The notes below the pieces were generated by a model that was not told the DNA's origin, searched no databases, and saw only the letters and a list, made by a program, of their open reading frames with translations. Below, piece after piece: positions 4,932 to 59,536 of a stretch of DNA of 64,000 nt. The stretch lies in assembly GCA_947462335.1 (NCBI GenBank), contig OX381721.1:34708303-34772302 (forward strand), given 5' to 3'. The position numbers were made by a program, and so were the translations under genes. The stretch's first letter is position 1; the number at the start of each line of letters is the position of its first letter. Source of the stretch: Harmothoe impar (taxonomy: Eukaryota; Annelida; Polychaeta; Phyllodocida; Polynoidae).

Positions 4932-7391
4932 ATGAGAGAGGCCAGAATACAGGAGCGTGTGCAAATGGCCCAAATGGAGTTGTTGACCATTCAGAAACAG
5001 TCGAATGAATGGAAAAGCAGTCTGATTGCATTGGAAGGTGCAGTCACACATAGAGCTTCCAAAATCAAGGAGAAAGACGCAAGGCTTTCAACTTTGTTGG
5101 AGGAGAACGAAAAGCTGGTGCAATCCCTTAGCAGGGTTCGAGTGGAGTTCGATCAGAAACAGGCTGATCTACAGGGACTCCGTTCCGACTTTGTCCAGGC
5201 AAACACTGAGCTGAATCAGATTTGTGCGGCCCGAGATGCCGTCATCCATGAAGCAGAAGGGACCCGGGCAGAACTTGTTCGGGACACTGAAGACTTACGG
5301 GAGGTTCGCCGAAGTCTAGTGTCGGAATGTGACATTCTGAAGGCAAAAAGAACTTCTTTGGAGCAGTTTTTGTCAGAGACCAGGGAGAGTATACAGGATA
5401 GCAGTACCTCGTACGCTTCCGCTGATAATGACAGTCCGAAAGGTCCTCATTACAGGAGTTTTACAGACACCCCAAATCTTCCTATGGGACGTGGGATGAC
5501 TGTAGAAGGTGCCTTGTCTACTTCAACGCCAGGACGACCACTAAAGGTTGGCCGGGCAAGGGGTAGAGGTAGGGCGAGTGATTACTCACCTAGGGTGGGT
5601 ATCAGTGGTATCCGTCCAATTCCGAAGCAGGTCTTTTCGGCTCCGACATGTGTAAACACGGCGGGCAGGGGAAGGTCATTATCGGAGTTGGTGCGGAGTC
5701 CACGTTCTCAGTTGAAACTGGATGAGCAGCAACTGGATTCGGAACGCTTGAAGAAAGCATCCGAACAAGATAAGGCGGCCAAGACCGACTTAACTCCCTC
5801 GAGTTTGTCGCAATGGCGAGAATGCCAAGCAAACATACTGTTCCATGAACAGAAAAACTTGGAATTGGAGAGGCGAGATGTGTATCGCAAACAGCAGGCT
5901 GCTCTTGAGCAGCAACAAGAACGCATGAAGGAAAATGCAGCCCTCGCTGAGGAATTAGCAGAGCAGGAGGCGGCGGTTTTGAGAGCTCGACAAGAAGGGC
6001 TCCGAGCGGCCGGTGAAGCTGCGAAAGCCAAATTGGCGGAGGCACAGCAAGAGGAGGAGGCTGAGAGACAGGCCAAGGAACTGGAAAAAGAGAAAGCGGC
6101 GCATCAGCGATTGCTTGCTCTGGCCCAGCAGTGTCAGTATATGACTGACCAGGAGAAAAATTGGTGGTTCAGTCAAGGTGTGGACCCCACTAAGGATTTG
6201 GTGTCGTATGGTACCTACCAGACCTATCTGGAGAGACAGAATAACTTGCCTACCAGAGGCGCTACTCCGGGGACGACTCCGGGCGCAAAGAGTCCGAGGA
6301 GGGCTCCAAGGAGAACAATTCTGAGTACAGAATTGCAAGAGTTGTACGATACAAACCCAGCAATAGCTGGGATCGGATTGCACAACGTGGGTACAGAAAA
6401 GGACGCCTCGGCTTCCATTTCTAAATGCCTGGCGATAACCTCTAAAATTAGGGGGTCATCCAACGCTGCTAGACGCATTGCTAGCGAGCCTTTTCCCTAC
6501 TGGCAGAAAAACTCTTGGGAAGATTGGTTGGGAGCCACCGTTGAGGACATCAACCTCAGTGGGTGGGATCAACAGGATGCAATTCCGTACGTCTGTAAGG
6601 GATTGCGCTTGGGGGATGGCCTGATGGCCGTGGAGCAGTGGAAAGATGAATGCGGACCCCGCGGCACTTTCAAACAACTGGTAGAGATCGGAACTATCCT
6701 ATACGGAGACTCCGCTCGGATTGACCCGATGGTCGCTTTTAAGAAGCGAGTGCAAGGCAAGAACGAGGCCCCGAGGGTTTTCGGACTTGCACTGATGAGA
6801 CTCCTGAAGAAGGTACATCCAGCTTCAGGAATCCATGATGCCTTATTCTCTAAGGAATTGTTCTCTCAGTTTGTTGCTGGACTGAGGGACCCAGAAATAC
6901 AACATGTGGTGTATGATACCTGGAGAGCAGATACGTCATTAGATGACCTTTTTAAGGCCATCGACATACATGCTCTCAAGAAGTCACTGTTAGGGGACCG
7001 GGTGCCCACCCGGGCCTCGGCCATTATAGAGTGTTCTCCGGAGCAGTCTGATGGTTCGGGCAGTGAGGAAGAGGGAGCGATAGCTTCTGCAGCTCAGTTT
7101 AAGAGGAATGGGAATTCCTCTAAAACGCCGTGGAAAAATAGGAAGCCGGAAGGGGGTGGAAACCCTCCTCCGAAGAAGGAATCATCGGACCCAAAAGCTC
7201 CGATAATGGACGCAGCGTTTTTCACATCGCTGTTTGAGAAGATGACGACTTCCATTCAGGGGGCTACACAGCCTAACCGGAGGAAGATCAATCGGCGGAC
7301 CGCCAAGTGCTATAGGTGCCTGGAGATCGGTCACTTTGCTGCGGAGTGTACGGCTCCGACTCCGAAAGTTCCCGGAAAGGAGGGAAACTAG
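4932..7391 (+). CDS. gag: Gag polyprotein (ORF1)
   Basis: 819 aa. The ATG at 4932 directly follows an in-frame TGA (4926-4928), so the start is firm; short upstream ORFs begin at 4699 and 4732. Residues about 1-165 and 250-400 are charged coiled coil (the second ends in Glu/Lys/Gln-rich helix), with an Arg-Gly-rich stretch near 205-220 between them. Residues about 470-700 form the helical capsid-like region. The C-terminus is basic and carries one zinc knuckle, CYRCLEIGHFAAEC (C-x2-C-x4-H-x4-C), at about 796-809. It should form the cytoplasmic particle and package the RNA. Its last sense codons make the frameshift heptamer into pol. The coiled-coil N-terminus makes it longer than a typical gypsy Gag. 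No disruptions are seen. Confidence 0.95.
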   Translation: MREARIQERVQMAQMELLTIQKQSNEWKSSLIALEGAVTHRASKIKEKDARLSTLLEENEKLVQSLSRVRVEFDQKQADLQGLRSDFVQANTELNQICAARDAVIHEAEGTRAELVRDTEDLREVRRSLVSECDILKAKRTSLEQFLSETRESIQDSSTSYASADNDSPKGPHYRSFTDTPNLPMGRGMTVEGALSTSTPGRPLKVGRARGRGRASDYSPRVGISGIRPIPKQVFSAPTCVNTAGRGRSLSELVRSPRSQLKLDEQQLDSERLKKASEQDKAAKTDLTPSSLSQWRECQANILFHEQKNLELERRDVYRKQQAALEQQQERMKENAALAEELAEQEAAVLRARQEGLRAAGEAAKAKLAEAQQEEEAERQAKELEKEKAAHQRLLALAQQCQYMTDQEKNWWFSQGVDPTKDLVSYGTYQTYLERQNNLPTRGATPGTTPGAKSPRRAPRRTILSTELQELYDTNPAIAGIGLHNVGTEKDASASISKCLAITSKIRGSSNAARRIASEPFPYWQKNSWEDWLGATVEDINLSGWDQQDAIPYVCKGLRLGDGLMAVEQWKDECGPRGTFKQLVEIGTILYGDSARIDPMVAFKKRVQGKNEAPRVFGLALMRLLKKVHPASGIHDALFSKELFSQFVAGLRDPEIQHVVYDTWRADTSLDDLFKAIDIHALKKSLLGDRVPTRASAIIECSPEQSDGSGSEEEGAIASAAQFKRNGNSSKTPWKNRKPEGGGNPPPKKESSDPKAPIMDAAFFTSLFEKMTTSIQGATQPNRRKINRRTAKCYRCLEIGHFAAECTAPTPKVPGKEGN

Positions 7392-10300
7392 AGGGGGTGG
7401 TCCGAGAAGGCGAGCGGACGACCCCTGTATATGATGTACGCCAACATACCAGAGAGGTAGAGCCTAGTGAAATTCCGAAGGCAGGAAGGGAATCAGGGGT
7501 GGCTTCGAGCTTGAGGGGCTCGGATGCCGGCCTGGTTAACATTCCAGTCCAACAGTTGCCCGGCAATGAGGCAGGGAGGCCCATTACGGATAGGAACGAG
7601 GAAGTTGCGGCTGTCACAGACACCGTGTGGGTAGGGAGTACCCAGCTTTCCCCGGATCATCCATGTTTCGACCATTTGAAGAAACATGGCCTTGATTTGG
7701 CTGCTCCGAAGGATTTTAAACGCTTTACTGTAAACCCGTCTCCGCTGGGGGGAAGGCGGTGGTATGTGTCTGTTACTGTGGCCGGTAGAGCGGGCGAATT
7801 TTTAGTAGATACGGGAGCTAGCCACTCCTTTATCTCCTCTAACTTCTATGCTCTTATGCCGGATAGTCGTGATAACTTCAAAACGAGGGTAAACGCCTGT
7901 TCGGCCGATGGGTCAAGTATGCAGACGTATGGGCGCGCGTTCATACCGCTCCGAATTGGAGGGAAGGAGTATGTGGCTTCTCCCACCATTGCGGATATTG
8001 CAGACGACGGTATACTCGGATTGGATTTTTCGGCGTTGTATGACGCGGTCCTGAATCCGGGTACAGGGGTACTCCTGATAGAGCACCCGTACCGTGCGGT
8101 AGAGCAATGTGTGCTCCGACAAGTGTCGACAGTGGCAACGGTGGTCCAAACTGTAAAGATTCCTCCCGGACAGACGTGTGACGTGCTGGTCCGAAGCAAG
8201 GGGCTTAGGAGAGAGGAAGAGGCAGTTGTGGAGCCGGATGTGGCCATGTTGGGTAATATCGGTTTGACGGGCATGGACACCCTAGTGGGTGATGGTGCTT
8301 GGACCGTAGTGCCGGTTTCTAACCCCGGGTTGGAACCGAAGTATCTAAGGAAAGATACAATACTGGGGAAGGTGTTCACCAGTGAGGCAGTGATGCCTGC
8401 TGGACAGGTGAGCATGAAGGGTGACCCTTCTCCGACCGCTCTGAGTGAGGGACTTGAGAAAATGATCTCCGAAACGGATTTGACGGATCGGAGGGATCTC
8501 GACTCCCTAAGGAGGCTGGTAGTGAAGTATCAGGATGCATGGCAGGTGGAGGGGGAGCCTTTGGGCCGAACCGACAAAGTGTTGCATTCTATCAATACGG
8601 GTGATGCACAGCCTTTCAAGATGCCTTACCGACGCTTGCCTTTGGGTAAGAAAGCGGTGGTAGAGGAACAAGTGAAGACCATGTTGGAACAGAAGGTGAT
8701 CGTGCCTAGCACTAGCCCCTGGTCCAGCCCGGTCCAGATGGTTACTAAGAAGGACGGGTCTATCCGATTTTGTATCGACTATAGGCGCCTGAATGGGGTA
8801 ACCAAGAAAAATGCATATCCTCTCCCCCGGATTGATGAGACTCTGGACTCTTTGGGTGGGAACCAATGGTTCTGCACCCTTGATTTGCAGTCCAGATATT
8901 GGCAGATCGGGATGAAGGAGGAGGATAAAGAGAAAACGGCTTTTACCAGTCACATTGGACTGTATCAGTTTGAGCTGATGCCCTTCGGGTTGTGCAACGC
9001 CCCGGCCACTTTTGAGGCTATGATGGAAACTCTTCTGAGTGATCTGTTGTGGCGCAAATGTTTGGTATACTTGGATGATGTCATTGTCTTTGGCAAGACT
9101 TTTGAAGAGTGTGCGTTGAACCTCGGAGAGGTTTTGGAACGAATTCGGTCCAATGGCTTGACATTAAAGCCGAAGAAATGTGAACTTTTTCGGAAGTCCA
9201 TGGTCTATTTGGGCCGGATCATCTCCACCGAGGGTGTGCAGGCTGATCCGGCTAAATTGGAGACTGTGGAGACTTGGGAAGTTCCAAAAGGACCAAAGGA
9301 TATCAGATCCTTTTTAGGGTTCTGTTCCTATTACAGGGACTTCATCCCCGGATTCTCTAGGGTGTCTCAGCCATTACAACGGTTGAGCCATTGGACTCCG
9401 GGGAGAAAAAAAGAACCCTTCCCATGGGGGATGGAACAGAATGAAGCCTTCAAAGAGATAAAGGCGTTGTTCCGAACCACCCCGGTGCTGAGATACCCTA
9501 CGGAGAAGGGGCAATTCATCCTTGACACTGATGCGAGCAATGAGAGCATCGGGGCCGCATTGTCCCAAATCCAGGACGGAGTAGAGGTCCCGCTGGCGTT
9601 CGCTAGTAACAGTATGAACAAGGCACAGAGAAATTATTGTACTACCAAGCGAGAGCTGCTCGCAGTAGTGGTGTACACGAAGAAGTTTCGGCACTTCTTA
9701 TATGGAGGGAATTTCACACTCCGTACCGATCATTCGGCCTTGAGGTGGCTCCTTAATTTTAAGGACGCCGAGGGAATGATTGGTCGATGGTTGAATCATC
9801 TCAGCGAGTTCGGACTGGAAAACTCTCATATCCAGCACCGAGCAGGCACGAAGCATATTAATGCTGACTGCCTGAGTAGACGTCCGGTACGCCGTTGTGT
9901 GCGTCCGGAGTGTGGGGATTGTGGTGCTCACAATGCTGTGGTAGCGAGTGTGCGTTTGCCTTATGATGGGTTGTTGCAAAACCTGTTGGATTGGTCCACC
10001 GACACTATAAGGACGTACCAGATGGCCGATCCTACCATAGCACGACTGAGGGAGCTTGTCCCTACTGGGGTCTGTCCAGTGAGACCCGAAATATCACTGG
10101 AAAACCGTGAAATGCGACGTTTCTTGGCTCAGTTCCACGAACTGGAGGTCCGAGACTCGTTGTTGTGCAGGTGGAAGACTTGTCCCGGAAAGCGGAGGGT
10201 GTTACAAATGGTAATCCCTGCTGCTATGAGGAAAGACATCCTGTACTACTGCCACGGCCATTCCACTAGTGGGCATTTCGGAAAGAAACGCTCGTTGGAA

Positions 10301-11560
10301 AGGCTGAGTCGGAGATACTACTGGCCCGGCATGTCAGGCGACCTTTTAAGGTGGATCGAGACCTGTCCGGCCTGTTGTTTAGGCAAACCTGGTCCTGGAT
10401 TAGGAAAATTGCCACTGCAACAAGAGCTATTCGGAGTGAGATTTGCTTTCCCATTAGCTGTGGACATTATCAGTGGAGTTAAACCCACTCCAAAAGGTAA
10501 TACGTGTATGATGGTGGTCTCGGACTACTATACGAAATACACCCGAGTGTACCCACTCGAGGATCATACCGCTGCTACTTGTGCGGAAGCATTGGTGAAG
10601 GGGTGGATCCTCCATCTGGGGGCTCCCTTGATGTTACATAGCGATCAAGGGAGAGAATTTGAGTCCAAACTATGGACAGCTATGTGCCATCAGTTGGCTA
10701 TATGCAAAACTCGGACCAATCCGTACCGACCACAGTCCGACGGGCAGGTGGAGCGGTTCAATCGGACCTTGATCCAGGTTTTGAAGCCATTAGTGAACTC
10801 CCATATGGATGATTGGGATGATCAATGCGAATTTGTGGTGCATGCGTATAACAATACGGTCCACACTTCGACAAATTGCACACCGAACCTCTTGGTGTTC
10901 GGAGAGGACTTGATCATGCCGGCGGATTTAGTATTCGGGGTGGTAGGGATCAGTCCGGAAGCACCATGTACGGTGCTGTTTGTGGAATCTCTACGAGAGA
11001 GGTTCAAATTTGCCTACGAAACAGTTAGGGCTCATTTGCTCAAAGCTGCGAATTGGCAGAAGGTGGGTTACGACACCGGATTGAAGTTGCGACGATTCGT
11101 AGTGGGGGATAGAGTGATCCGCCTACACGAACCGCTCTGCAACGTCAAGCTGGCGAATAACTGGGATGGACCACACACTGTGGTTAAATGTATCAGTCAA
11201 ACGACTGTGTTGATTCAGTCCGAAGCAGGACGCATCCGGACGAGCCATGTGGCTCGGTTGCGTGCTTGGGCTGGAAGGGAGCTCACCCCGGAAACGGAGG
11301 TGGAGAAGGGAACTTCGGAGGCTAAATTTGTACCTTTGGAAGGGGTGTCAGTGGATACCCCTAAGAGAGTGGTACGAAAGAAGCTCCGGAAGACCGTGAA
11401 AAAGAAAGTCTCGGCAGGCGAAGGAAGAAGGGCACGGAAAACTAAAATCAAGGCTGGAGTTTTAGTTAAGAACGAGTGTCCTTCGGCCAGGTTACGAGAG
11501 GTGGACGGGAAACCCGTTCGGCGAAGCCCAAGGCTGGTGGCTAGAGGGGCTGTAACCTAG
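7316..11560 (+). CDS. pol: Pol polyprotein: protease, RT, RNase H, integrase (ORF2)
   Basis: The frame is open from 7316 to 11560 (1414 codons) with no credible ATG at its start, and is entered by -1 frameshift at 7385-7388. Numbering from 7316: aspartic protease DTGAS at 165; reverse transcriptase with YLDD at 585-588; RNase H with LDTDAS at about 736-741 and TDHSALRWL; integrase zinc region (HGHSTSGHFG ... CPAC); catalytic D1050, D1110 and E1146 (D-x35-E). A GPY/F-like WDGPH lies at 1283-1287, and the C-terminal tail is Lys/Arg-rich. No chromodomain is recognised. Every catalytic motif is intact and there are no stops, so the copy may be active. The Pro-RT-RH-Int order places it in Ty3/gypsy (Metaviridae). 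Confidence 0.96.
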   Translation: MPGDRSLCCGVYGSDSESSRKGGKLEGVVREGERTTPVYDVRQHTREVEPSEIPKAGRESGVASSLRGSDAGLVNIPVQQLPGNEAGRPITDRNEEVAAVTDTVWVGSTQLSPDHPCFDHLKKHGLDLAAPKDFKRFTVNPSPLGGRRWYVSVTVAGRAGEFLVDTGASHSFISSNFYALMPDSRDNFKTRVNACSADGSSMQTYGRAFIPLRIGGKEYVASPTIADIADDGILGLDFSALYDAVLNPGTGVLLIEHPYRAVEQCVLRQVSTVATVVQTVKIPPGQTCDVLVRSKGLRREEEAVVEPDVAMLGNIGLTGMDTLVGDGAWTVVPVSNPGLEPKYLRKDTILGKVFTSEAVMPAGQVSMKGDPSPTALSEGLEKMISETDLTDRRDLDSLRRLVVKYQDAWQVEGEPLGRTDKVLHSINTGDAQPFKMPYRRLPLGKKAVVEEQVKTMLEQKVIVPSTSPWSSPVQMVTKKDGSIRFCIDYRRLNGVTKKNAYPLPRIDETLDSLGGNQWFCTLDLQSRYWQIGMKEEDKEKTAFTSHIGLYQFELMPFGLCNAPATFEAMMETLLSDLLWRKCLVYLDDVIVFGKTFEECALNLGEVLERIRSNGLTLKPKKCELFRKSMVYLGRIISTEGVQADPAKLETVETWEVPKGPKDIRSFLGFCSYYRDFIPGFSRVSQPLQRLSHWTPGRKKEPFPWGMEQNEAFKEIKALFRTTPVLRYPTEKGQFILDTDASNESIGAALSQIQDGVEVPLAFASNSMNKAQRNYCTTKRELLAVVVYTKKFRHFLYGGNFTLRTDHSALRWLLNFKDAEGMIGRWLNHLSEFGLENSHIQHRAGTKHINADCLSRRPVRRCVRPECGDCGAHNAVVASVRLPYDGLLQNLLDWSTDTIRTYQMADPTIARLRELVPTGVCPVRPEISLENREMRRFLAQFHELEVRDSLLCRWKTCPGKRRVLQMVIPAAMRKDILYYCHGHSTSGHFGKKRSLERLSRRYYWPGMSGDLLRWIETCPACCLGKPGPGLGKLPLQQELFGVRFAFPLAVDIISGVKPTPKGNTCMMVVSDYYTKYTRVYPLEDHTAATCAEALVKGWILHLGAPLMLHSDQGREFESKLWTAMCHQLAICKTRTNPYRPQSDGQVERFNRTLIQVLKPLVNSHMDDWDDQCEFVVHAYNNTVHTSTNCTPNLLVFGEDLIMPADLVFGVVGISPEAPCTVLFVESLRERFKFAYETVRAHLLKAANWQKVGYDTGLKLRRFVVGDRVIRLHEPLCNVKLANNWDGPHTVVKCISQTTVLIQSEAGRIRTSHVARLRAWAGRELTPETEVEKGTSEAKFVPLEGVSVDTPKRVVRKKLRKTVKKKVSAGEGRRARKTKIKAGVLVKNECPSARLREVDGKPVRRSPRLVARGAVT
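7382..7425 (+). promoter_or_regulatory. -1 programmed frameshift signal (GGGAAAC + stem-loop)
   Basis: The gag frame reads G GGA AAC UAG at 7382-7391. This is a canonical X XXY YYZ heptamer in the correct phase, immediately before the gag stop. Five nucleotides downstream, 7394-7404 can pair with 7415-7425 (11 pairs with one G-G mismatch) around a 10-nt loop. Slipping back one base enters the pol frame exactly (AAA CTA GAG). GGGAAAC is an established retroviral slippery site. Confidence 0.85.
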
Positions 11561-12145: not shown

Positions 12146-15100
12146 ATGGCCGAGCAACAGCTCCGTCAATCCGAACTCACCGGAGCCCTAGTGGTGATGA
12201 GTTGAGCCAGACACTAGCGGATCTCCGTGTAGATCCGGCCTTGTCCCCGATCCGAAAGTCCCCGTCGCCGGACGGCAGCGAGGACTCCGGAGTGCTGCAA
12301 GGACTCGCCTACACCCAGGTAGCGGCGGATCCTTCCGAGACGACTGCACGTCCCTCCCGGATATGCAGTCTCAGCATATCACCAAACCTCCAGAAGACGG
12401 TTGCTCGCAAACTGTCTATGGGGAGTGGGAGTGATTCCGACACTTCACGTCCGAGGACGCGCGGTGGGAAGGGTGCTACCCGAGATCGGTCCAAGTCGGC
12501 CGATACTAAGGCTAGTACCAAGGCTATCAAACACACTGGTGTTGGGAAGAAGCCTCCGGGAAAGGACGAGCCTAAAAAGCCCGCTCCGAAGAAGGAAAGT
12601 ACTACGAGTACGAAGAAGCCGGGTTCTAAGGCTGCCACTGCAGCGGCCTCCAAGGATCCGAAGACGGTTGACCCCAAGGCTCCTACTACGAAGGTGCCTA
12701 AGGGTCAAAAGAAAGCTGATCCGAAGCCTGGTGCTAAGGACCAGCCGGGGAAGGGGCCGACGTCCGACAGCACTAAAACTGTCAAGACTCCGGGCCCCAG
12801 TAAGTCCAACCTACCGATCCCTGCCAAGGGGAAAGGTAGTGGGAAGGCAGTTGTAACAACAGCTGCTCCGACCCCAGCCGTTGACGTGTTGTCCTTCTCG
12901 CGAGGGCTGGACAATAGCTCAGCAGTAGCTGCTACAGCCGCTGCGATGGCTGGTACTAAAGGACATGGGGGAGCCCGTCCAAAAACGGTAGTTCCTCCCG
13001 AGGCACCTCGGACCGAGGAAGCTATGGATACATCATCCGCAGCCCATACGGTCCAGGTAGTGCAGGATGTGCTGTCTAGCATCACCTTCAACCTCCCGAC
13101 TCCCCTGGAGCCAAGAAAGGAGGTACCCGTTCGGGTGGAGTTACCTCCTCCAAAAGAGGTACCCGTCCGAGTGGATACTCCTCAACAGTCTACCGAGCCT
13201 GCTCTGGAACCATCCAATACCATGGATATTTCAGAGGAAGCCGGGAAACTGGACCAGGCTGCAGGTGGTGGTCCGACTGGATCGGGGGTGCAAATCCTCG
13301 CTCCACACCAGCATGACGCATGGGAGAAGGAGGACGCCGACGTCCCATCCCTGCTCCGAGGTGCTATCATCGATCAGATGAGCGCAACAGAGGTCAGGTC
13401 CTTCGATCTGATCCAAATGCGAACCTTCCGGGGGCTAGACGAGTTGTCTGCCAGGTTCCCGGCTTGGTTCCCAGATCGCTTAACGGCGGCCATGAACGAT
13501 CTCAGCAAAAAGTCAGAGACAGCTCGCTTAGTTGCTGAGACCGAGGGACGTCCCGAACTTATCGCGGCCTTGGAGTACGACCTGCAAACTGCAGCGGAAT
13601 TCCAGACCGTGCATAACCGGCGGGAGAAGAGGAGACATCTGACGCCAGCAATGAAGCTGGCTCGGAGTATGGAGCAGAAGACCAAAGAGTCCATTCTGGA
13701 TACTACTCTGGAGGATGAAATGATCCAACAGAACACGGCCGCGGCTAGGTCTGCAGACACTAGTCGCATGGAAAAGGCCAATCGTAGGGACCAATACCTA
13801 CGAGAGACCATCAAGGTAACCTCTCGGAAGGGGGGTCGATCCGACGAGGAGGTAGAAGCGGTTCTGAAGGGATTGGATGAAAATACAATCCCGGACGACG
13901 AACTTCAGGTTCTGGTCCGGAATGCACTCCGAGCCAATGCTGCAAGTGGGTTTAAGTACTTTAAACCCATGTGTGTGAACGACTGCGTCAAGGACAAGCG
14001 GGCCTCACACATTCCGGAGGAGGTGGGTCCTGACGGTCTCTCCGATGACGAGGAGTGGATTAAGACTGATCCACTCGATAAGTCGGTACAGTTGTACCAC
14101 TTTGAGCTCCTGGACAAGGTCCAAAATGGTAGTACCAAATACCATTCGCCTTTCCAGAAAGCTAAGTTGGCATGGGCTATGGCTAGATGGCATCCATTTA
14201 GCAAGTGCCCCTTTGAGCCTTGTCTGAACATCGACGAGACACTGGAAACGCCCCGAACTTGGCCTAGCAAGGTTCGGTACGCAAGGCATATTACCCGCTA
14301 TCATTTGCGTCACTACATGCGGTATGACTGCTTGAGTGTGGGTACAAAGCAGAGCAAGGGTTGTCCGAATGGTGGCTGGTTCTACACTAGAGCCGATATC
14401 ATCAGGCATCTTGCTAAGCAGCACGGCTTGGCTCTGGAGATCGCGGCGGAACGCATCCAGACAGCCCATCAGGAAGTCTACTCCCATTTCGGGGTAGTGG
14501 GCCGAAATGAGAATCTCGAGGTGGATTTTGGCACCAACGAGAGAGGAAAGGTCCGGGTCTTTTACAAGGTAAACCCGGACGGCAACTACAACCGGGTTCC
14601 GGAAGGTGAGCTCTTCGATGAATTCGAGGAGTACCAGAAGCGTACCAGTACGCGAAAGGTGCGGCGCGCTCAGAAGAGACCTAGTGGGTCTTCGGAGCAG
14701 GCCGACTCTAAAAAGGCCAAAACGGATGAAAGGAAATCCGTTATGGAGAAGGCGGATCCGGGCTATAAAGGGCCGGCATTCACCTCTCATACGACCGACT
14801 GGAAGAAGGGTCCCCAGGGCAGGCCACCTCGGTCTGTTCCGGAGGATCCAAACTCCAGCACGATGGGGTCCTTCGCAGAGGAGTTCCCCGAAAATGAGAT
14901 GGTTCCGGGTGATGAGTCGCAGACTCTAACCCAGACCGGTAAGACGAAGGCTCCAGCAAAGAAAACGCCGAAGCCAGTTCAGACCCCGGATCTCCCACCC
15001 GAGACCGCAGAGGAGGGGCGTCTAGTCTTGCGACTGAAGAGCCCTCCTTCGTTCCCTCCCGCCGACTTCACTTCCTATGAAGCCGGACAGGAGGCCTTCG

Positions 15101-15279
15101 GTCAATGGCAAGACAACTTTCATCGGTTGCTTGCTGGCCTGAGTCAGGAGGTGGCGATGTTGTCCTTAAACACGGTGCATCATCTCCATCAGAGGGAGGT
15201 CGCTACCCAGAAGGCAGCGGCTACGGAGTCCGTACAGGAAGAGCGTGAAAACGCTCGGACTGAACGATGTGCTGCTTAA
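12097..15279 (+). CDS. ORF3: large Lys/Pro-rich, zinc-finger-like protein
   Basis: The frame is open from 12097 to the TAA at 15277. The first in-frame ATG is at 12418. A well-placed ATG at 12146 is one frame away and stops after 19 codons, so the true start is unresolved (indel, splicing or non-AUG). Numbering from 12202: about 70-215 is Lys/Pro/Ala/Thr-rich and disordered; about 270-380 is Pro/Glu-rich; about 390-620 is helical. Then two C2H2-like motifs follow: C669-x4-C674 with H696-x4-H701, and C710/C721 with H736-x4-H741. The rest is acidic/basic linker and a terminal coiled coil. No signal peptide or transmembrane helix is seen, so it is not an envelope protein. The family is not recognised. 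A nucleic-acid- or chromatin-binding accessory protein is inferred from the motifs. Confidence 0.8.
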   Translation, partial: CFPRQNSRRKTLCRSEDGRATAPSIRTHRSPSGDELSQTLADLRVDPALSPIRKSPSPDGSEDSGVLQGLAYTQVAADPSETTARPSRICSLSISPNLQKTVARKLSMGSGSDSDTSRPRTRGGKGATRDRSKSADTKASTKAIKHTGVGKKPPGKDEPKKPAPKKESTTSTKKPGSKAATAAASKDPKTVDPKAPTTKVPKGQKKADPKPGAKDQPGKGPTSDSTKTVKTPGPSKSNLPIPAKGKGSGKAVVTTAAPTPAVDVLSFSRGLDNSSAVAATAAAMAGTKGHGGARPKTVVPPEAPRTEEAMDTSSAAHTVQVVQDVLSSITFNLPTPLEPRKEVPVRVELPPPKEVPVRVDTPQQSTEPALEPSNTMDISEEAGKLDQAAGGGPTGSGVQILAPHQHDAWEKEDADVPSLLRGAIIDQMSATEVRSFDLIQMRTFRGLDELSARFPAWFPDRLTAAMNDLSKKSETARLVAETEGRPELIAALEYDLQTAAEFQTVHNRREKRRHLTPAMKLARSMEQKTKESILDTTLEDEMIQQNTAAARSADTSRMEKANRRDQYLRETIKVTSRKGGRSDEEVEAVLKGLDENTIPDDELQVLVRNALRANAASGFKYFKPMCVNDCVKDKRASHIPEEVGPDGLSDDEEWIKTDPLDKSVQLYHFELLDKVQNGSTKYHSPFQKAKLAWAMARWHPFSKCPFEPCLNIDETLETPRTWPSKVRYARHITRYHLRHYMRYDCLSVGTKQSKGCPNGGWFYTRADIIRHLAKQHGLALEIAAERIQTAHQEVYSHFGVVGRNENLEVDFGTNERGKVRVFYKVNPDGNYNRVPEGELFDEFEEYQKRTSTRKVRRAQKRPSGSSEQADSKKAKTDERKSVMEKADPGYKGPAFTSHTTDWKKGPQGRPPRSVPEDPNSSTMGSFAEEFPENEMVPGDESQTLTQTGKTKAPAKKTPKPVQTPDLPPETAEEGRLVLRLKSPPSFPPADFTSYEAGQEAFGQWQDNFHRLLAGLSQEVAMLSLNTVHHLHQREVATQKAAATESVQEERENARTERCAA

Positions 15280-17284: not shown

Positions 17285-17875
17285 GCGATACAGGTTGATA
17301 GTCTACGATGGGGTGACTTAGAATCTATGACTGGGTGATCTCCACAACTGGGTGGCCTCTACACCTGTGTGACCTCTATGACCGGGTGACCTCTTTGAAT
17401 AGGTGACCTCTATGACCGGGTGACCTCTTTGACCGGTTGACTTCCATGACTGAGTGACTTCTTTGACTGGGTGACCTCTTTGAATAGGTGACCTCTATGA
17501 CCGGGTGACCTCTTTGACCGGTTGACTTCCATGACTGGGTGACTTCTTTGACTGGGTGACCTCTTTGAATAGGTGACCTCTATGACCGGGTGACCTCTTT
17601 GACCGGTTGACTTCTATGACTGGTGATCTCTTTGACCAGGTGACCTCGATGACTGGGTGCCCTCTTAAACTGGGTGACCTCTATGAACGGGTGATCTCTT
17701 TAACTCGGTGACCTCTAGGACTGGGTGACCTTGACTGGGTGATCTCTTTAACCAGGTGACCTCTATGACTGGGTGACTTCTTTGACCGGGTGATCTCTAT
17801 AACTGGGTGACCCCTATGACTGGGTGACCTCTTTGACCGCGTGACCTAGTCTGGGTGACCTCTTGGACCGACAAG
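17285..17875. repeat. Minisatellite, GGTGACCTCTATGACTG units (copy A)
   Basis: More than 30 degenerate units of about 17 bp (GGTGACCTCTATGACTG, GGTGACCTCTTTGACCG and similar), with a higher-order 34-bp alternation and a local three-fold repeat near 17390-17600. They lie inside an element whose left end contains GATACAGGTTGATAGTCTA. The matching right end is truncated in this copy (about 17965-17995). Confidence 0.8.
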
Positions 17876-22593: not shown

Positions 22594-23405
22594 ATCTCAC
22601 CAAAGCGATACAGGTTGATAGTCTAAGACAGGGGGACTTCTACAACTAGGTGATCTCTATGATGGGTGACCTCCACAACTGGGTGACCTCTTTCACCGGA
22701 TGACCTCTATGACCAGGTGACAAATATGACTTGGTGACCTCTTTGACAGGGTGACCTCTATGAATGGGTGATCTCTTTGACTGGGTGACCTCTATGACTG
22801 GGTGACCTTGACCAGGTAACCTCTATGAATGGGTGACTCCTTTGACTGGGTGACCTCTTGGACCGGGTGACCTCTTGGACCGGGTGACCTCTATGACTGG
22901 GTGACTTCTATGACCGGGTGACCTATTTGTATGGGTGACTTCTTTGACCGGGTGATCTCTATGACTGGGTGATCTCTTTAAATGGGTGTCCTCTATGACT
23001 GGGTGGCCTCTATGACTTGGTGATCTTTTTGATTGGGTGACCTCTATGAATGGCTGACCTTGACCAGGTAACCTCTTTGACCGGGTGACCTCTATGACTG
23101 GGTGATGTCTTTCACTGGGTGACCTCTATGACTAGGTGACCTATTTGACCGCGTGACCTAGTCTGGGTGACCTGTTGGACCGGCAAGCATGAAAAGGGAT
23201 TTAATGGGGCATATGTAGAAAGAAATGGCAGGGAAAAGTTAATGCAAGTTTTTACACTTTATCTTACTAATTGTATTTCAATTTGGTTATAATCATGTGC
23301 CTTTTCTTGCTTGCAGGTCATAGAGGTTACCCGGTCATGGAGTTCACCCAGTCAAAGAGGTCACCTGGGCTTAGACTATCAACTTGTGTCGATCTGGTGA
23401 GACTT
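22594..23405. mobile_element. TIR element carrying an internal minisatellite
   Basis: The left end reads CTCACCAAAGCGATACAGG then TTGATAGTCTAAG. The right end is the reverse of TCTCACCAGATCGACACAAG then TTGATAGTCTAAG. Inside, units of GGTGACCTCTATGACTGG run inward from the left (22640-23175), and a few inverted units occur at the right (23320-23375). Copy A has lost its right internal units. It seems to be a non-autonomous foldback element whose subterminal repeats have expanded. Confidence 0.65.
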
Positions 23406-28991: not shown

Positions 28992-29169
28992 ATAGCCAGA
29001 CAGGCGGATCAGCGTGTTACCGTATTCCAGTATACGGCTGTCAAGTTCAGGTTAGTTCAAGTTCAAGATATTTTAACCGCTGACTTCAATTACATGTTCT
29101 TTAGTTGCAATATTGGGCCGACCAGCCCTCAGTGATATTATTACGCCTCGTTCAAAATTGACCGTGACT

Positions 29170-29702
29170 ATTGACAGTTCGAACTGTCAATAACAGAACA
29201 AAATTCCCTTATTGACAGTTCAAACTGTCAATACCAGGATATAATTCTCTATTGACAGTTTGAACTGTCAATAAGGGAAAAAATATTCTCTTATTGACAC
29301 TTCCAAAAAGGAACTGTCAATAAGAGAAAAATATCCCACTATTGACAGTGTGAACTGTCAATAAGGGAATTCTATCCTGGTATTGACAGTTCAAACTGTC
29401 AATAAGGGAATTCTATTCTGTTATTGACAGTTCAAACTGTCAATAAGACAATTGATTTCTACTATTGACAGTTCAAACTGTCAATAGCCGGCCCACCTTG
29501 GTTTAGCTATTGACAGTTCAAACTGTCCATAGTGGAAAACTTTCCTCTTATTGACAGTTCACACTGTCAATAGTAGGATATTTTTCTCTTATTGACAGTT
29601 CAAACTGTCAATAGTGGTAAATTATAGGGCCACTGACAGTTCTTCACTGAACTGTCAATAGTGGGAATTTCCTCTCTTATTGACAGTTCCTTATCTGTCA
29701 TA
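29170..29702. repeat. Array of about 13 palindromes at 41-bp period
   Basis: Units of ATTGACAGTT-NN-AACTGTCAAT (22 bp) start at 29170, 29211, 29251, 29293, 29341, 29382, 29423, 29464, 29509, 29550, 29591, about 29631 and 29679. Spacing is mostly 40-42 bp. Spacers of 18-21 bp are A/T-rich and related to each other (AGGGAATTCTATYCTG and its reverse). The first seven units form a larger inverted repeat centred near 29309. The centre-point dinucleotide varies (CG, CA, TG). Confidence 0.9.
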
Positions 29703-29710
29703 ACCCTGAG

Positions 29711-30240
29711 ATCGATTTTGGTGGAAAAGTTGATTTTGGTGGAAAAGTCGATTTTGGTGGAAAAGTCGATTTGGTGGAAAAGTCGATTTTGGTGGAAAAG
29801 TCGATTTTGGTGGAAAAGTCGATTTTGGTGGAAAAGTCGATTTTGGTGGTAAAGTAGATCTTGGTGGAAAAGTCGATTTTGGTGGAAAAGTCGATTTTGG
29901 TGGTAAAGTCGATTTTGGTGGTAAAGTCGATTTTGGTAGAAAAGTCGATCTTGGTGGAAAAGTCGATCTTGGTGGAAAAGTCGATCTTGGTGGAAAAGTC
30001 GATTTTGGTGGAAAAGTCGATTTTGGTGGAAAACCGATTTTGACCGATTTTGGAGACAAAACCGATTTTGACCGATTTGGAGACAAAACCGATTTTGACC
30101 GATTTTGGAGACAAAACAGGTTTTGACCGATTTTGAGACAAAACCGATTTTGACCGATTTTGGAGACAAAACCGATTTTGGGTCTAAAACCGTTTTCGGG
30201 TTCCAAACCGATTTTGGGTCCAAAACCGATTTTGGTGAAA
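29711..30240. repeat. 18-bp minisatellite GTCGATTTTGGTGGAAAA grading into a 28-bp one
   Basis: About 18 copies of GTCGATTTTGGTGGAAAA (with GTAAA, GATCTT variants) to 30033. Then units of ACCGATTTTGACCGATTTTG + GAGACAAA to about 30180, then longer CCGATTTTGGGTC units. Because 18 bp is six codons, both strands stay open in several frames; these are not taken as genes. It lies between the two palindrome blocks. Confidence 0.9.
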
Positions 30241-30319
30241 AAAACACTTTTGCCAAAGAAAAAACACCTTTTGACTCCAAAGTCAATGGGAAGTGTCAAT
30301 AAGACAGAAATATTCCACT

Positions 30320-30430
30320 ATTGACAGTTCGCATGAGGAACTGTCAATAACAGGAATTATTTCCACTGTTGACAGTGTGAACTGTCAATAAGAGAAATAT
30401 TTTCCACTATTGACAGTTCGAACTGTCAAT
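30320..30430. repeat. Second palindrome block closing the composite element
   Basis: Three more units (30320-30349 with a longer loop, 30368-30389, 30409-30430) of the same ATTGACAGTT/AACTGTCAAT palindrome. Together with 29170-30240 it gives a composite of palindromes, minisatellite and palindromes of about 1.26 kb. Confidence 0.85.
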
Positions 30431-30447
30431 AGCGTTTTTGTTCAAAA

Positions 30448-30757
30448 TTACGTAAACAATGAATATATAAAAGATGATTATGATGAATGTATGTTGGATG
30501 TGTGATCTACAGTATAAATTTGATTGTATTCAATCATGTTTGTTCAAATAAAAAATATTCAGTTCGATTGCTTGCTTCAGTCCAATGCATAGCTTTTGTT
30601 ATTAATTATCCCTCTTCTAGGTATCACATACCAGAGATTTTAGTTAACTTGTTGACTCAGACATGTGGGTCTATGTACATAGCTGTATGCTATTGAGCAT
30701 ACTATGATGTACATTACCCTAATAAAGAATCTTTAAAAATAAAAATAAAAATAAAAC
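30448..30757 (+). mobile_element. Possible retroposon 3' end
   Basis: AT-rich sequence ending CTAATAAAGAATCTTTAAAA then (AAAAT)n, a form common at LINE/SINE 3' ends. No coding region or 5' end is seen. Confidence 0.3.
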
Positions 30758-39831: not shown

Positions 39832-40016
39832 TACCGTATTCGACGTAATAAGCGCACAGTGCACTTAAAAAATGATTATGGACACCTTTTAGTAGTTAAG
39901 AGTCTAATTAGGGTAAAAAATTGAGATACTTTTGGCTATTTCTAGCATAAGAATCAGCCAAACACGGGGGGTGTGCGCTTATTAGGGGGTGTGCGCTTAT
40001 TACGTCGAATACGGTA
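39832..40016. mobile_element. MITE, TACCGTATTCGACGTAATAA ends, copy 2
   Basis: A perfect 26-bp TIR beginning TACCGTATTCGACGTAATAA. The right end has a partial duplication of GTGTGCGCTTATTA. About 185 bp, TA at the ends, in line with Tc1/mariner-like MITEs found in many animals. Near-identical copy at 47628-47814. Confidence 0.85.
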
Positions 40017-43969: not shown

Positions 43970-45748
43970 TCATGCCTGACTGTCATCAGGACTGTTTGGT
44001 TGCAAAATGTCTGTCCATTCATGACTCGGAATGGAGAGCAGTGCTGTGAAGTATGCCTTGCTCACCACAGTTTTCAGATAGTTACCACAAGAGATGATTT
44101 CGACATTTATTTTCTTCTTTCCCTTATCCATGGGGAACTCCACAGATGCAATATTGGAGATGCCCAGGTGGGAATTGAAATGAAGGAAGAGCCTCCTGCT
44201 ATGAACTAGCACACAGAGCTGATAACGATTGAAAGTAAAATCTACAGGACTGCCAAATTCAGCCATAAAGTCCCACTGTGACCACTGGTCAGCTGACGGA
44301 GTGTAGTAGTGAAGTAGACCCTCATCACTAACACAGAACAGGACCTCCTCACCCCACAGCTCCATGACGTGAAACTGACATCCTACAGCTTTAGGGTCAG
44401 GGATGGGGGCTCTGCTTTGCCAAGCATAGGTGGAGAGATCAAGACAATCCAGTCTCTCGTCATTTGATCCCTGAGAGGAAGTGTCACCGCCAACTACATA
44501 AATACAGTCACCGATTACACATGCACTGTGGTCTGTATTAGCATTAGGCAGCTTGGTGGGCAGAATTTCCCAGCTGTTGGTTTGAAAATCATATCTTTCA
44601 ATTACATCAGTATGCTTACCGTAGTAGTCAGTAGCATATATAGAAGCGTCATCAGTCTCTCCCGCTAAGGCATACAGGTATTGTTTGTGATGGACTACAG
44701 CAAAGGCAATTCGTGGACTAGCCATGCCTGCCATCTCTGACCATGTCATGGTGCGAGGGTTGAATATGTGCCAGCCCTGTGGTATGGAGTCGCTTTTAAA
44801 ATCTTCACAGGCAATTAGAAAGTTGTTGACCACAAGAAATTCTCCATAAGGCCTATGGTGTATGGCAGGATCTATTGGAACCTCAAGGTATTTCCGAGAC
44901 GCATTAGGAAGTAATAAACCCGAGGAACCTTCATACTCAATGTAACAGATAGGTTCAGGGTCCCCTCTCACCTGGCTTTGTTCTGATTCATCCAGTACCT
45001 TTTGGTGAGTCGGCAGTTTCTGGTATTCCTCAGCTTTATCTACAAGGTCCTGCCATGAGCCCTCAGAATCTGAGTAGATGTCCTTGTCTTTGATGATTTT
45101 CAGTTGTTCAGATGTCATCAGAGCAAATCGGACATGACCCATCAGGTCATTCAAGTGGGATTTACGATTCTCAGAATCCGCCTGAACCCATTCTTTGACC
45201 CTCTGGAAGAGATCAAACTCAGACTTCTGCCATATTTCAGAAAGAGTGAGAAATACTTCATAGGATATTGTAGGTTCACAGATTTCCAAGACTTCTTCAA
45301 AATGTGTCTTTATATACTCCCTTGTTTTCCCAATACCATGTTGCAGATAGTGTGTTTTGAAGAGCTGAAGAGTATGTAGACAGTTCTGGTTGTTGAGTTT
45401 GTCCAGGAGTAGCTCGGTGGATGTGTCAATAGCTGCTGTTACCTGCAGGTACACCGCACAGGACAGGAGCTCCTCCGGGCTTCCTTTGGGAGAGACAAAC
45501 TGCCCCGTATAGATGAACTCTATCATATCAGAGACTACGAGCGGATCCAGTCCCACAAGTCTCACCCTGTCAGTCTGACTTTCTGCCATACCTCCCATCA
45601 GCATGGCCTTGAAGTAGTCACTGACAGAGGCCATAATGACTTTGTGCACTTTGAACTCTTTATCCTCGACTTCTATGGTGTAGTCCATTAACATCTGTTC
45701 CTCCCAGAGGGTGCGGACACCCTTAACCAGGCCTGCATTTGTCGTCAT
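43970..45748 (-). CDS. BTB-BACK-Kelch protein (kelch-like)
   Basis: 592 aa in one uninterrupted exon. The ATG at 45748 is the first Met, and 41 nt upstream there is a good splice acceptor (TTTAATTTCAG| at 45790), so the 5' UTR is probably spliced. BTB spans about 14-120 (DYTIEVEDKEF, HKVIMASVSDYFKAML). BACK spans about 125-235 (HVRFALMTSEQL). Divergent kelch repeats from about 290 include YVVGGDTSSQ and repeated YxFxTxxW-type strands. Proteins of this architecture usually bind Cullin-3 through BTB/BACK and hold substrate with the propeller, acting as ubiquitin-ligase adaptors. That role is inferred from the family. Length is typical of KLHL proteins. The orthologue within KLHL cannot be named. 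A same-strand paralogue starts at the right edge of the window. Confidence 0.95.
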   Translation of the reverse strand: MTTNAGLVKGVRTLWEEQMLMDYTIEVEDKEFKVHKVIMASVSDYFKAMLMGGMAESQTDRVRLVGLDPLVVSDMIEFIYTGQFVSPKGSPEELLSCAVYLQVTAAIDTSTELLLDKLNNQNCLHTLQLFKTHYLQHGIGKTREYIKTHFEEVLEICEPTISYEVFLTLSEIWQKSEFDLFQRVKEWVQADSENRKSHLNDLMGHVRFALMTSEQLKIIKDKDIYSDSEGSWQDLVDKAEEYQKLPTHQKVLDESEQSQVRGDPEPICYIEYEGSSGLLLPNASRKYLEVPIDPAIHHRPYGEFLVVNNFLIACEDFKSDSIPQGWHIFNPRTMTWSEMAGMASPRIAFAVVHHKQYLYALAGETDDASIYATDYYGKHTDVIERYDFQTNSWEILPTKLPNANTDHSACVIGDCIYVVGGDTSSQGSNDERLDCLDLSTYAWQSRAPIPDPKAVGCQFHVMELWGEEVLFCVSDEGLLHYYTPSADQWSQWDFMAEFGSPVDFTFNRYQLCVLVHSRRLFLHFNSHLGISNIASVEFPMDKGKKKINVEIISCGNYLKTVVSKAYFTALLSIPSHEWTDILQPNSPDDSQA

Positions 45749-46035: not shown

Positions 46036-46385
46036 GGTCGTGATTATTGACCGTTCCAACTGTCAATAGCAGAATAAATTCCCTTATTGACAATTCGCAC
46101 TGTCAATAATCTCTTATTGCCAGTGTGAACTGTCATTAAGAGAATTATATCCTGGTATTGACAGTTCTAACTGATCTAGTTCAAACTCTATTTTGATGGG
46201 AAATTATATTTTGATGGAGAAGTCTATTTTGATGGAGAAGTCTGTTTTGATGGAAAAGTCTATTTTGATGGAGAAGACAGTTTTGATGGAAAAGTCTTAT
46301 TTTGATGGAAAAGTCGATGTTGATGGAAAAGTCTATTTTGATGGGAAGTCAGTTTTGATGGGAAAGTCTATTTAGATTGAAAAGT
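46036..46385. repeat. Second member of the palindrome/18-bp-minisatellite family
   Basis: The left end GTGATTATTGACCGTTCC and following units (CTGTCAATAGCAGAATAAAT) align with the left end at 29160-29220. Four degraded palindromes are followed at about 46185 by roughly ten 18-bp units GTCTATTTTGATGGAGAA. The same modular order at a second locus shows this is a real repeat family. No closing palindrome block was seen. Confidence 0.8.
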
Positions 46386-46989
46386 AAGAAAGGGTGGTCA
46401 TGCCTCCAGTCTCTGAGAAACAATTTTCCCAATCTTCTCTTCACATTAACTCTAAACATATCCTTGTCTACAATCCATCTGACTGCCGGGGACAGCGCGT
46501 TCCAGTGGGAACACGCTTGATATGTTGGGACTGTTTATCAGACCAGTCAACTTATGTCTGGGCATTGTAATGCTTGGTGCATGAGTGGTCCTAAGTACAA
46601 TCTGCGTAAATCCAGAGGCAATATTTTTGCATCTTTGTACAGTTTCTTCACCGGGCAGTCCTGTGGATCACCCACCCTAAAACACACTCTGAGCGCACCA
46701 TTCCGTCTCATCTAGGGTGAATTTGGCCTCAGCCCAGTTGGACAGGGGGCTGTTGGCACTCATAAACCCTACCCCTTTGGGAGTTTCCTTCGTGAAAGCG
46801 TCCTGGGTGTTCAACTCGTCCGGCAAGAGATGTGTTCTGTCCCTTTCATATTTGTACCCATTTAGTACTATACCATCACCATATATGTCCGCCTTGTAGC
46901 CCTTTTCAATACTTTGAGAGATCGCCGCAAAATTGATATCGACAGAGACGTGTCAAGTTTAAGTTCAAGACCAAGGGTTGAGCTTGAGC

Positions 46990-47627: not shown

Positions 47628-47814
47628 TACCGTATTCGACGTAATAAGCGCACAGTGCGCTTAAAGAATTATTATAGACACATTTTAGTAGTTAAGAGTC
47701 TAATTGGGGTCAAAATTTGAGAATTTTTTGGTTATTTGTAGTATAAAAATCGGCCATAAACGGGGGGGGTGTGCGCTTATTAGGGGGTGTGCGCTTATTA
47801 CATCGAATACGGTA
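47628..47814. mobile_element. MITE, TACCGTATTCGACGTAATAA ends, copy 3
   Basis: Collinear with 39832-40016, including the duplicated GTGTGCGCTTATTA at the right end and the interior TTTTAGTAGTTAAGAGTCTA. TIR differs at one position. Confidence 0.85.
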
Positions 47815-51904: not shown

Positions 51905-54900
51905 TAGCCCAGGCGATATGCGCAAGATTCAGGTGGAATCGTGCAAACTCGTCGTAAAAGCATGAAATCGGATTGGCTTAAAGTTCATGTTCATAGGATC
52001 AATTTCAGAGTTGGAGCCAGCCAGAAAAACCATTATTCCTAGCAGAGCGGCCATTTTGTTTTGGCATCACTAAATCAGACTTTTCCTGCAATAACTCCAT
52101 ATTTAGGTGTGTTACAGTGACAAATAGTTGAACCAGTCATGTCATACTTGAAGTCCATGTCCATCATAATCAATTTCAGAGTTGAAGCCATCTGAAAAAA
52201 ACATTATATCACCCATGGCAGCCATTTTCTATCGCCATCACCAAAACATACCAATATACACATGACCTTCATTTTGACAATCAAAAAGTTATAAGATTGG
52301 GAAAAATAGGTGTGTCACTCATGTCATGCTTGAAGTCCGTGTCCATATGATGAATCTCAGAGTTGGAGCCACCCAGAAAACTCATTATTAGAGTCATAGC
52401 AGCCATTTTCTCTTATCCATCATTGAAACATACCAAAATACATGTTTACTCAATTTATTTCAAATGCTGGCCTATTATTGGGACAAATCATCCAGTTGGA
52501 CATGTCATGCTTGAAGTCCATGACATCATGATAAATCTGAGGGTTGGAACCAGCGAACAGATTCATCAATACAGCCATGGCAGCCATTTTGTTCTATCAT
52601 CATAAAAACCCACATTTCGTTCAATTATCCACAAAATAAACTTATTAAGGGGACAAATTATTCTGTCTGTCATGGTGTGCCCAATGTCAGTGTCCATATT
52701 ATGAATCCCAGTCACCCAGAAAAGCCATTGTTACAGTCATGGCAGCCATTTTGTTCTCCAATCGCTAAAGCATACCAATATACACATGCCCTTCATCGGA
52801 CATTCAAAGAGGTATAAAATTGAGATAAATACTTCAGTCAAGCATGTCATGCTTAATGTTCATGTCAATGTGATGAATCTCAGAGTTGGAGCCACCCAGA
52901 AAACTCATTATTAGAGTCATAGCAGCCATTTTCTTTTACCCATCATTGAAACATACTGAAATACATGTTAACTCAATTTATTTCAAATGCTTGCCTATTA
53001 TTGGAACAAATCATCCAGTTGGACATGTCATGCTTGAAGTCCATGACATCATGATAAATCTGAGGGTTGGAACCAGCGAACAGACTCATCAATACAGCCA
53101 TGACAGCCATTTTGTTCTATCATCATAAAAACCCACATTTCGTTCAATTATCCAAAAAATAAACTTATTAAGGGGACAAATTATTCTGTCTGTCATGGTG
53201 TGCCCAATGTCAGTGTCCATATTATGAATCCCAGTCACCCAGAAAAGCCATTGTTACAGTCATGGCAGCCATTTTGTTCTCCAATCGCTAAAGCATACCA
53301 ATATACTCATACCCTTCATCGGACATTCAAAGAGGTATAAAATTGAGATAAATACTTCAGTCAAGCATGTTATGCTTAAAGTTCATGTCAATGTGATGCT
53401 TCTCAGAGTTTGACCCACCCAGAAAGTCCATTATTACAGGACAGGCAGCAATTTTGTTTTGGCATAACTAACTCAAATATTTCCTACAGTAATCCCACAT
53501 CAAGGTGTATTATAGTTGCAAATAGTCATGTGCACCTTTAAGTCAATGTGAAAATGACAAATGTAAGACCTGGAGTTATCCTGAAAACCCATTATTATGA
53601 CCATGCTAGCCATTTTGTTCTCACATCCCCAAAAACATACCAATATACAAATACTTAATCTGACATACAAAAGGGTATTGAGATAAACAGTCATGTCATA
53701 CTTAAAGTCTATGTGCATATGATGAATCTCAGAGTTGTGGCCATCCTAAAAATACATTGTTACAGCCATGGCAGCCATTTTGTTTTACCATCAAGTAACC
53801 CAAGAAATAAGCAAATTATGTAGAAAGTTGTTCTATGACTCATGTCATGGTCAAAGTCTGTGTCAGTATGATAAGCCTCAGAATCGCAGCCCCGGAGAAT
53901 GCCCCTTATTACAGAATTGGCAGCCATTTTGTTCTCCCATCTCCCAAAACATACCCACATGCACATGACCTTCATCAGACCTATAAAATAGTACGATATG
54001 GTGACAATTAGGCCAGTCAGTGATAGATTTATTAAGGTCCATGTCCATATAACTGATCACAGAGTTGGAGCAACCCAGCAATCCCATAATTACAGCCATA
54101 GCAGACATTTTTTTTCTAACATTATGTGATATTATGAAGACTTGACCGCTAATAATTACCATTCTTGTGAAATGCTGTGATGCATGGCATTGCTCTAATA
54201 AAGATTTGGCTTCGGTAAAGATAATGTGTACGTTGCAATGATGCCAAATGAAAATGGGTGCCATGGCTGTAAAAATGGGTTTTCTGGCTGGCTCCGACTC
54301 TGGGACTCATCATAAGTACATGGTCTTTAAGCATGACATCACTTACAGAACAAATTTTACACACATGATATACTAACTTGTTGGGTAAATTTAAAAAATG
54401 GGAGTTTTAATACTGGTAGAACAAAATGGCTGCCATGGCTGTAATAATAGTTTTTTTGGGCGGCTCCAACTCTGTGATTCATTATATGGACATGGGCTAT
54501 GAGTAGGACATGAGTGACTGACCTATTTGTCCCAATATTATACCTCTTTGTAGGACTGAGAAAGGTCATGTGTATATTGTTATATTCACGATTGGAGAGC
54601 ATAATGGCTGATGGGGCTGTAAAAATAGGTTTTCTGGGTCACTGGAGGTCTGAGATTCATCATATGGACATGAACTTTAGGCATGACATGACTGACAGAA
54701 CAGTTGTGTCAGCTTAATTATATTTAATTGTTAGATTATTGAGGCATATAATGGTTATAATGATGGTAGCACAAAATGGCTGCCATGGCTGTGATAATAG
54801 TTTTTCAGCGTGGCTCCAACTCTGGGATTCATTATATGGACATGGACAATGAGTATGACATGACTGACTGACCTATTTTTCTAAATATGATACCTCTTTC

Positions 54901-58760: not shown

Positions 58761-58768
58761 TATAAAAG
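58761..58768 (+). promoter_or_regulatory. TATA box of the left mini-gene
   Basis: TATAAAAG, 33 bp before the predicted ATG. The matching place in the right arm reads TATGAAAAG, so only the left copy has a good TATA. Confidence 0.45.
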
Positions 58769-58793
58769 ATTGAATGTGTGAGTGACCTCACAG

Positions 58794-59154: not shown

Positions 59155-59536
59155 GAACTATAGTATGCGTGTTCTTTTCCTTTGGTTTTCTCTTGTACAT
59201 GTAAATTTAATTTTAAAAAGCTACATGGGTTTTTTCTGTGTTTATGAGGGTATTTACACTGTAGTAGATGGCATTTCTGAATGAAAAGAGAGAAATACCA
59301 GCCAGAGAAATACCAGCCAGCTTAGGCTAAAACCTCATTTCTATCTTTCGTTTAACAATGTGGTCAATCTAGAGTTCATTTAGAGGGTAGCAATTTAACA
59401 GTACTTAAGAGTTTACGCGAAAGAGAAAAATTCATGTCGAAAGATTGCAGTTCAATATCATATTAAAAAAAGGAGATATTTGATTTCTTTTCGAAGGAAA
59501 CATTTGTCCCCGGATCTTGCCCATCCATTTCTTTGG

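Follow-up and report, generated by a model that had tools for sequence, protein, structure and literature searches.

A palindrome array in the annelid Harmothoe impar is one arm of a non-coding DNA transposon, many copies of which carry GGCC on one flank

The window, that is, the whole stretch of 64,000 nucleotides that we analysed (contig OX381721.1 of the Harmothoe impar assembly GCA_947462335.1, positions 34,708,303 to 34,772,302), contains genes and repeats of several kinds. An LTR retroelement at 4932-11560, with frames for zinc knuckle, aspartyl protease, reverse transcriptase, RNase H and integrase, has close protein relatives at ~90%, and is followed by an open frame of 1,025 aa without Pfam match (12202-15279). 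A BTB-BACK-kelch gene occupies one open frame of 592 aa on the minus strand (43970-45748); eight matches were found for its protein, the best with 26% identity. Among the repeats are two 17-bp minisatellites of related sequence, with 32 and 31 units (17324-17863 and 22645-23159), and an 18-bp tandem unit, GGGGGTGTGCGCTTATTA, present in two copies each at 39967-40002 and 47765-47800. A second foldback-like structure, with repeats of ~170-180 and 350 bp in inverted arms, lies at 51946-55766, and 225-nt inverted repeats at 58764-63179, 91% complementary and 4.4 kb apart end to end, are perhaps another TIR element.

Besides these features, the window contains an array of palindromes that is one arm of a larger non-coding DNA transposon (Table 1). 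Matches to ATTGACAGTTNNAACTGTCAAT with up to three mismatches number 15 in the whole window, against a mean of 0.01 in shuffles; 12 of them fall in 29170-30430 and three in 46046-46137. In copy 1 of the transposon the minus strand reads from the A end, at 30440, to the B end, at 29160, which is one base off the common tip. An earlier note, made from the letters alone, had ended the feature at 29702; it instead continues through minisatellites to a second array, and the arrays at both ends form terminal inverted repeats (e.g. arms 29506-29601 and 30338-30433, 85% complementary). The order of palindromes and then 18-bp minisatellite is repeated in copy 2, in which no A end was found.

Table 1. 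Coordinates of the transposon copies in the window and of their parts
Feature	Position	Strand	Basis or detail
Copy 1 of the transposon, 1,281 bp	29160..30440	-	Ends and flanks common to copies elsewhere in the genome
9-bp target duplicate TTCAAAATT, B side	29151..29159		Flank comparison
9-bp target duplicate TTCAAAATT, A side, without GGCC in copy 1	30441..30449		Flank comparison
Array at the B end, with 12 complete palindromes, one half-site from a decayed 13th and the inverted repeat centred at 29307	29169..29689		
18-bp minisatellite TCGATTTTGGTGGAAAAG, 18.5 copies	29712..30042		
28-bp and decayed 18-bp minisatellites	30018..30243		
A-end array: one single half-site and three palindromes	30290..30431		
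Copy 2, truncated	46036..46386	-	B end with 3 mismatches, 3 palindromes, one half-site, then 18-bp minisatellite

The left array of copy 1 is real and far beyond chance, but the 13 near-identical palindromes first described come down to 12 complete ones and one decayed, at 29678. Their centres lie 41, 40, 45.5, 44.5, 41, 41, 41, 45, 41, 41 and 44 bp apart; the larger steps arise because two palindromes have 6-7 extra central bases (29292 and 29631) and one spacer is 21 nt long. Over the whole of copy 1, 11 of 14 spacers measure exactly 17 nt, and the palindrome centre is closed in 12 of 15, with 6-7 extra bases in the remaining three. The 32 half-sites have a mean likeness of 92%, and the eleven 17-nt spacers are 62% alike when the better orientation is taken. 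The mutual relatedness of the spacers proposed in the earlier note was borne out (mean best identity in either orientation 0.59, against 0.46 in shuffles), and they are also weakly self-symmetric (44/96 dyad positions; shuffles, 24.4, with 0/5000 as high). The giant inverted repeat in the first half was likewise found, with arms at 29169-29250 and 29364-29445 that are 91% complementary around a centre at 29307. The proposal that the palindromes lie on one face of the DNA depends on helical pitch: it holds at 10.6 or 10.5 bp per turn (Rayleigh p ~0.003 and 0.016), but not at 10.4 or 10.25 (0.54 and 0.48). The exact palindrome has no match in viral and prokaryote sequence collections, and neither a distant blastn of the array against phages nor an Rfam search gave any match.

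A genome-wide search for the palindrome retrieved 11,589 sites with up to two mismatches from the window's own assembly (1.51 Gb, 736 contigs), against 28 for the reversed pattern. The copies share fixed ends, A (CAAAAACGCTATTGACAG...) and B (...CTGTCAATAGTCACGGCC), with 355 and 403 exact occurrences, respectively, and the listed ends are found on many contigs and at many positions, with no confinement to special chromosomal sites. This distribution, as scattered elements of ~1.1 kb with target duplications, speaks against the centromere- or origin-type factor that had been suggested to bind the array. On contigs C1 and C3 there are 34 same-strand A-B pairs within 20 kb, of which 31 span 955-1,564 bp and the others 3,479, 10,896 and 13,237 bp. 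Fifteen regions of C1 were examined in detail. Both flanks were compared in eight copies lacking the GGCC mark described below (the window copy, L005+L006, L007, L009, L010, L012, L015 and L084+L085): six have identical 9-bp flanks, L010 agrees in 8 of 9 bases, and in L015 AGCC replaces the first four bases of the target duplicate. As a chance control for these duplicates, 28 of 19,963 random 40-mer pairs shared at least 10 bases. The array layout is inherited among copies, and two subfamilies can be separated, largely by their spacers.

Comparison of the copies reveals that the half-sites vary far less than their surroundings. In 29 copies the mean divergence is 1.6% in the 12-bp half-sites against 9.2% elsewhere in the arrays, with the proviso that half-site columns were picked by likeness to the motif, which somewhat favours a lower value for them. 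Minor alleles present in at least four of the 29 copies occur in 4/242 half-site columns and 38/211 others, and rarer ones in 53/242 and 86/211. Likewise, among ten copies (13 were aligned, with L005_6, L008 and L015rc left out), variants common to at least two copies occupy 5/307 half-site columns against 35/283 elsewhere in the arrays, and singletons 16/307 against 33/283. Low-frequency variants are therefore also rarer in half-sites, for which selection on active copies alone does not account; gene conversion may play a part in this scarcity, as may the way in which half-sites were chosen, by likeness to the motif. Among 315 palindromes of the 29 copies, counted at positions 1-11 with half-sites within three mismatches, there are 187 changes in one arm and three two-arm changes that differ, and none that match; the copies share ancestry, and these changes are not independent events. 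This contrast indicates that the conserved unit is the half-site and not the hairpin.

These data bear on three other explanations for the array. Folding of the strand, as hairpin RNA or cruciform, had been proposed as the selected feature that keeps the palindromes, and strong folding is possible: the predicted energy is -285.7 kcal/mol against -115.6 in shuffles (z -26.75), and giant inverted repeats are nested in the array. However, the absence of any pairing-keeping change, together with the occurrence of partnerless single half-sites (30290), makes this very improbable. We consider it even harder to credit that the array is a functionless, satellite-like expansion of a 41-bp unit carried by the transposon, although Tandem Repeats Finder reports such a unit (10.6 copies, 74% matches) and the spacers are related, because such neutral growth does not agree with the difference in divergence between half-sites and the rest of the array. 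The earlier note had itself weighed a 41-bp unit in free drift at just two loci, whereas there are thousands of sites genome-wide and their variation is mostly in the spacers. TGACAG is a site for TALE-class homeodomain proteins, and it appears in inverted pairs in the conserved core, so the half-sites might bind a host factor of this kind and serve the transposon as promoter or enhancer; this is unlikely in our view, since the sites occur at both ends of a non-coding element, as would be expected of transposase sites. The pattern fits protein-bound half-sites, probably the transposase's, rather than selected hairpins, and to that extent the earlier suggestion that a transposase or similar protein binds the array is indirectly supported, by arrays at both ends and by half-sites more conserved than spacers. 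A site of the transposase itself is the simplest reading, because the half-site is both conserved and repeated at the two transposon ends. One transposase subunit would then bind each half-site, TATTGACAGTTC, and a palindrome would be occupied by a pair, while the many sites could raise occupancy and help to bring the two ends together.

With a probability of about 0.72, we interpret the element as a non-autonomous Foldback-like transposon that has the array as its long end and generates 9-bp target duplications, and that probably relies for its movement on a transposase of Mutator/Rehavkus type encoded at another place. Its long, internally repeated terminal inverted repeats and dispersed copies with target site duplications are those of Foldback-like elements; the 9-bp duplication lies within the range of 8-11 bp given for Mutator-like elements, or MULEs (PMC6446971), and a minisatellite beside the terminal inverted repeat, here at 29712-30243 between the two arrays, is typical of Rehavkus. 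Structure and duplication thus fit the Mutator/Foldback group, and Rehavkus in particular, in the 9-bp duplication, the internally repeated ends, the unlike tips and the adjoining minisatellite.

A transposase-coding copy with these ends was not found among the copies read, a set that leaves out a 10.9-kb pair on C3 and a 15.4-kb pair on C4. The genome contains 46 matches to PF10551, none noted inside long A-B pairs; half-sites are absent within ~1.5 kb of all 30 Mutator-domain loci examined, and from the 4-kb flanks of one such locus on C14. Nine frames from PF10551 loci were scanned, one of which has a PHD finger above cut-off and two FLYWCH above cut-off; the MULE with the PHD finger is L043, L045 has one below cut-off, and there is no linkage to the element's ends. 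Four loci (L022, L024, L043 and L045) contain frames for Mutator transposases that have FLYWCH or PHD fingers and, within the coding sequence, tandem repeats. Longer copies were rejected as autonomous candidates: those of 8.8 kb (L005+L006) and 10.2 kb (L084+L085) contain nested LINE-type reverse transcriptases, that of 13.2 kb (L086) has an LTR-type integrase in the 5.5 kb examined, and that of 3.5 kb (L083) has no transposase-like frame by eye. Upstream of the nested reverse transcriptase of L006 there is a NADAR-domain frame (L005, 1872-3929), which is resembled by a frame of L084 (3154-5100) without Pfam match.

Several known elements share part of this organization. Tm1, a Mutator/Foldback element of root-knot nematodes, also has 9-bp target duplications, terminal repeats made of a variable number of short units and a differing short motif at each tip; unlike here, its units are mostly of 14 bp and are not described as palindromes in the sections cited, some of its copies encode a transposase whereas no copy of our element that was read does, and the account of its TIR motifs describes no GGCC-like mark (PMC3169594). 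Rehavkus, known from insects and annelids, has the same 9-bp duplication and a minisatellite adjoining one terminal inverted repeat, and has a PHD-finger transposase, which the copies read here lack (PMC6446971). The Foldback element Tetris of Drosophila virilis is apparently non-autonomous as well, with tandem repeats in its ends and target duplications of 8-10 bp, although these repeats are of ~220 bp and palindromes go unmentioned in the portion cited (PMC4079207). Galileo, from Drosophila, likewise has long, internally repeated ends, and the THAP domain of its transposase binds several sites in their repeats by experiment, a precedent for the transposase sites that are here predicted from sequence; Galileo belongs to the P superfamily, and the cited part of its description gives one footprinted and two further sites, with no array of inverted half-site pairs (PMC3688188). 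Among literature titles and the opening lines of abstracts, no match to Foldback ends made of palindrome arrays was recognised. In all, the element is of an ordinary class, with an unusual layout of paired half-sites and a surprising GGCC mark.

This mark concerns the target duplicate. Many copies have GGCC-N5 as their A-side flank and M4-N5 on the B side, N5 being common to the two flanks; the A-side duplicate thus opens with GGCC, the element's own B tip, instead of M4. GGCC-N5 directly precedes 179 A ends in the genome, and 48 of 97 A ends on C1 to C4 (17/33, 2/6, 11/23 and 18/35; 95% interval 0.39-0.60), these being 97 of the 100 listed among the 355 exact A ends, with three on C5, one of them with GGCC, left out. 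By comparison, GGCC occurs 199 times in the 64,000 bases of the window, and among 11 A ends fetched regardless of it (the window and L005-L019), five have GGCC at the mark distance and at most one at any other offset within 200 bases. The GGCC copies are separate insertions because their N5 differ (81 distinct among 100 GGCC places listed). We fetched 30 GGCC loci, five of them insertions already examined, and eight lacked a B end within 1,525 bp. Of the 22 with both ends, 17 have the same N5 on the two sides and two agree in four of its five bases; L067 agrees only after a one-base shift, as for an 8-bp duplicate, which L083 also fits by eye, and L058 and L060 do not fit, with one and three of the five bases in agreement. 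The first four bases agree, position by position, in 1, 0, 8 and 5 of the 22 copies. At one A end (G000, C4:17816699-17816732; 1/45 shown) the A side reads TGGCCGATT, with GGCC four and not five bases from the end, perhaps a variant of the mark.

Prior presence of GGCC in the target was considered and rejected. The joined flanks of 32 queries (28 insertions) were compared with the fetched loci, and three insertions had matches across the junction, none of which (0/15) contains GGCC. For L063 there are 13 matches at 72-85% identity, which at the place of GGCC in the filled site begin with TT (11), TG (1) or GGCA (1), and these are not independent because several come from one tandem array; the single matches for L065 and L015, whose mark is AGCC, read ACCT and CTAA. 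The target preference is also shared: position 2 is T in 17 of the 18 B sides of GGCC copies considered (the 22 less L058, L060, L067 and L078) and in 36 of the 45 A sides that lack GGCC, the latter being those with letters shown among 195 places, from a search pattern in which position 1 may not be G. The mirror preference, A at position 8, appears in 72 of 100 GGCC places listed and more weakly, in 24 of 45, in A sides without GGCC. Since empty sites lack GGCC and B-side bases follow the usual target preference, one target duplicate carries the element's tip in place of its first four bases. It thus seems that the transposon tip is written into one side of the target, either on insertion or in a later reaction. 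To our knowledge no such mark has been published, nor do known transposition schemes predict it; our search of the open-licence literature found no description of one.

How the mark might arise can be outlined tentatively. The last four bases at the B end would be linked, in the course of strand transfer, to the target's free 3' end, giving GGCC on one, gap-filled strand and the unchanged target sequence on the other, and replication would then segregate GGCC and the original bases in equal shares. A one-strand origin of this kind predicts a share near one half, which 48/97 fits. It is possible, though we hold it at less than even odds, that joining of the B tip writes GGCC into the A side on one strand in this way, leaving it in half of the descendants in place of a plain target duplication. 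GGCC is its own reverse complement, and its strand of origin is therefore unreadable. The main rival to this heteroduplex reading of the half share, in our opinion rather unlikely, is that GGCC is a later scar: the B tip of a resident copy would attack the flank next to the A end, at a distance of 5 nt from it, and the intermediate would be badly repaired. A comparable attack of one tip near the other end takes place in the circle formation of some bacterial insertion sequences. GGCC-N5-A end does resemble a B-to-A junction with a 5-nt gap, and this gap is kept in the two copies (by eye) with an 8-bp fit on the B side, L067 and L083. Nevertheless, the observed share fits one event per insertion with equal segregation, and the simpler outcome of a later attack would be GGCC added beside kept bases, whereas the empty-site matches of L063 show replacement.

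An unexplained palindrome array thus becomes the end of a mobile element, with a predicted DNA site for the protein that drives it. The GGCC mark resembles a record of insertion chemistry, in which four base pairs on a single side are overwritten at roughly half of the counted A ends. If heteroduplex joining of the B tip is the true origin of the mark, the integration reaction would include an additional joining step, derived from the transposon and readable in the genome sequence by itself; if confirmed, strand processing in animal transposition would be open to study by counting genomic copies.
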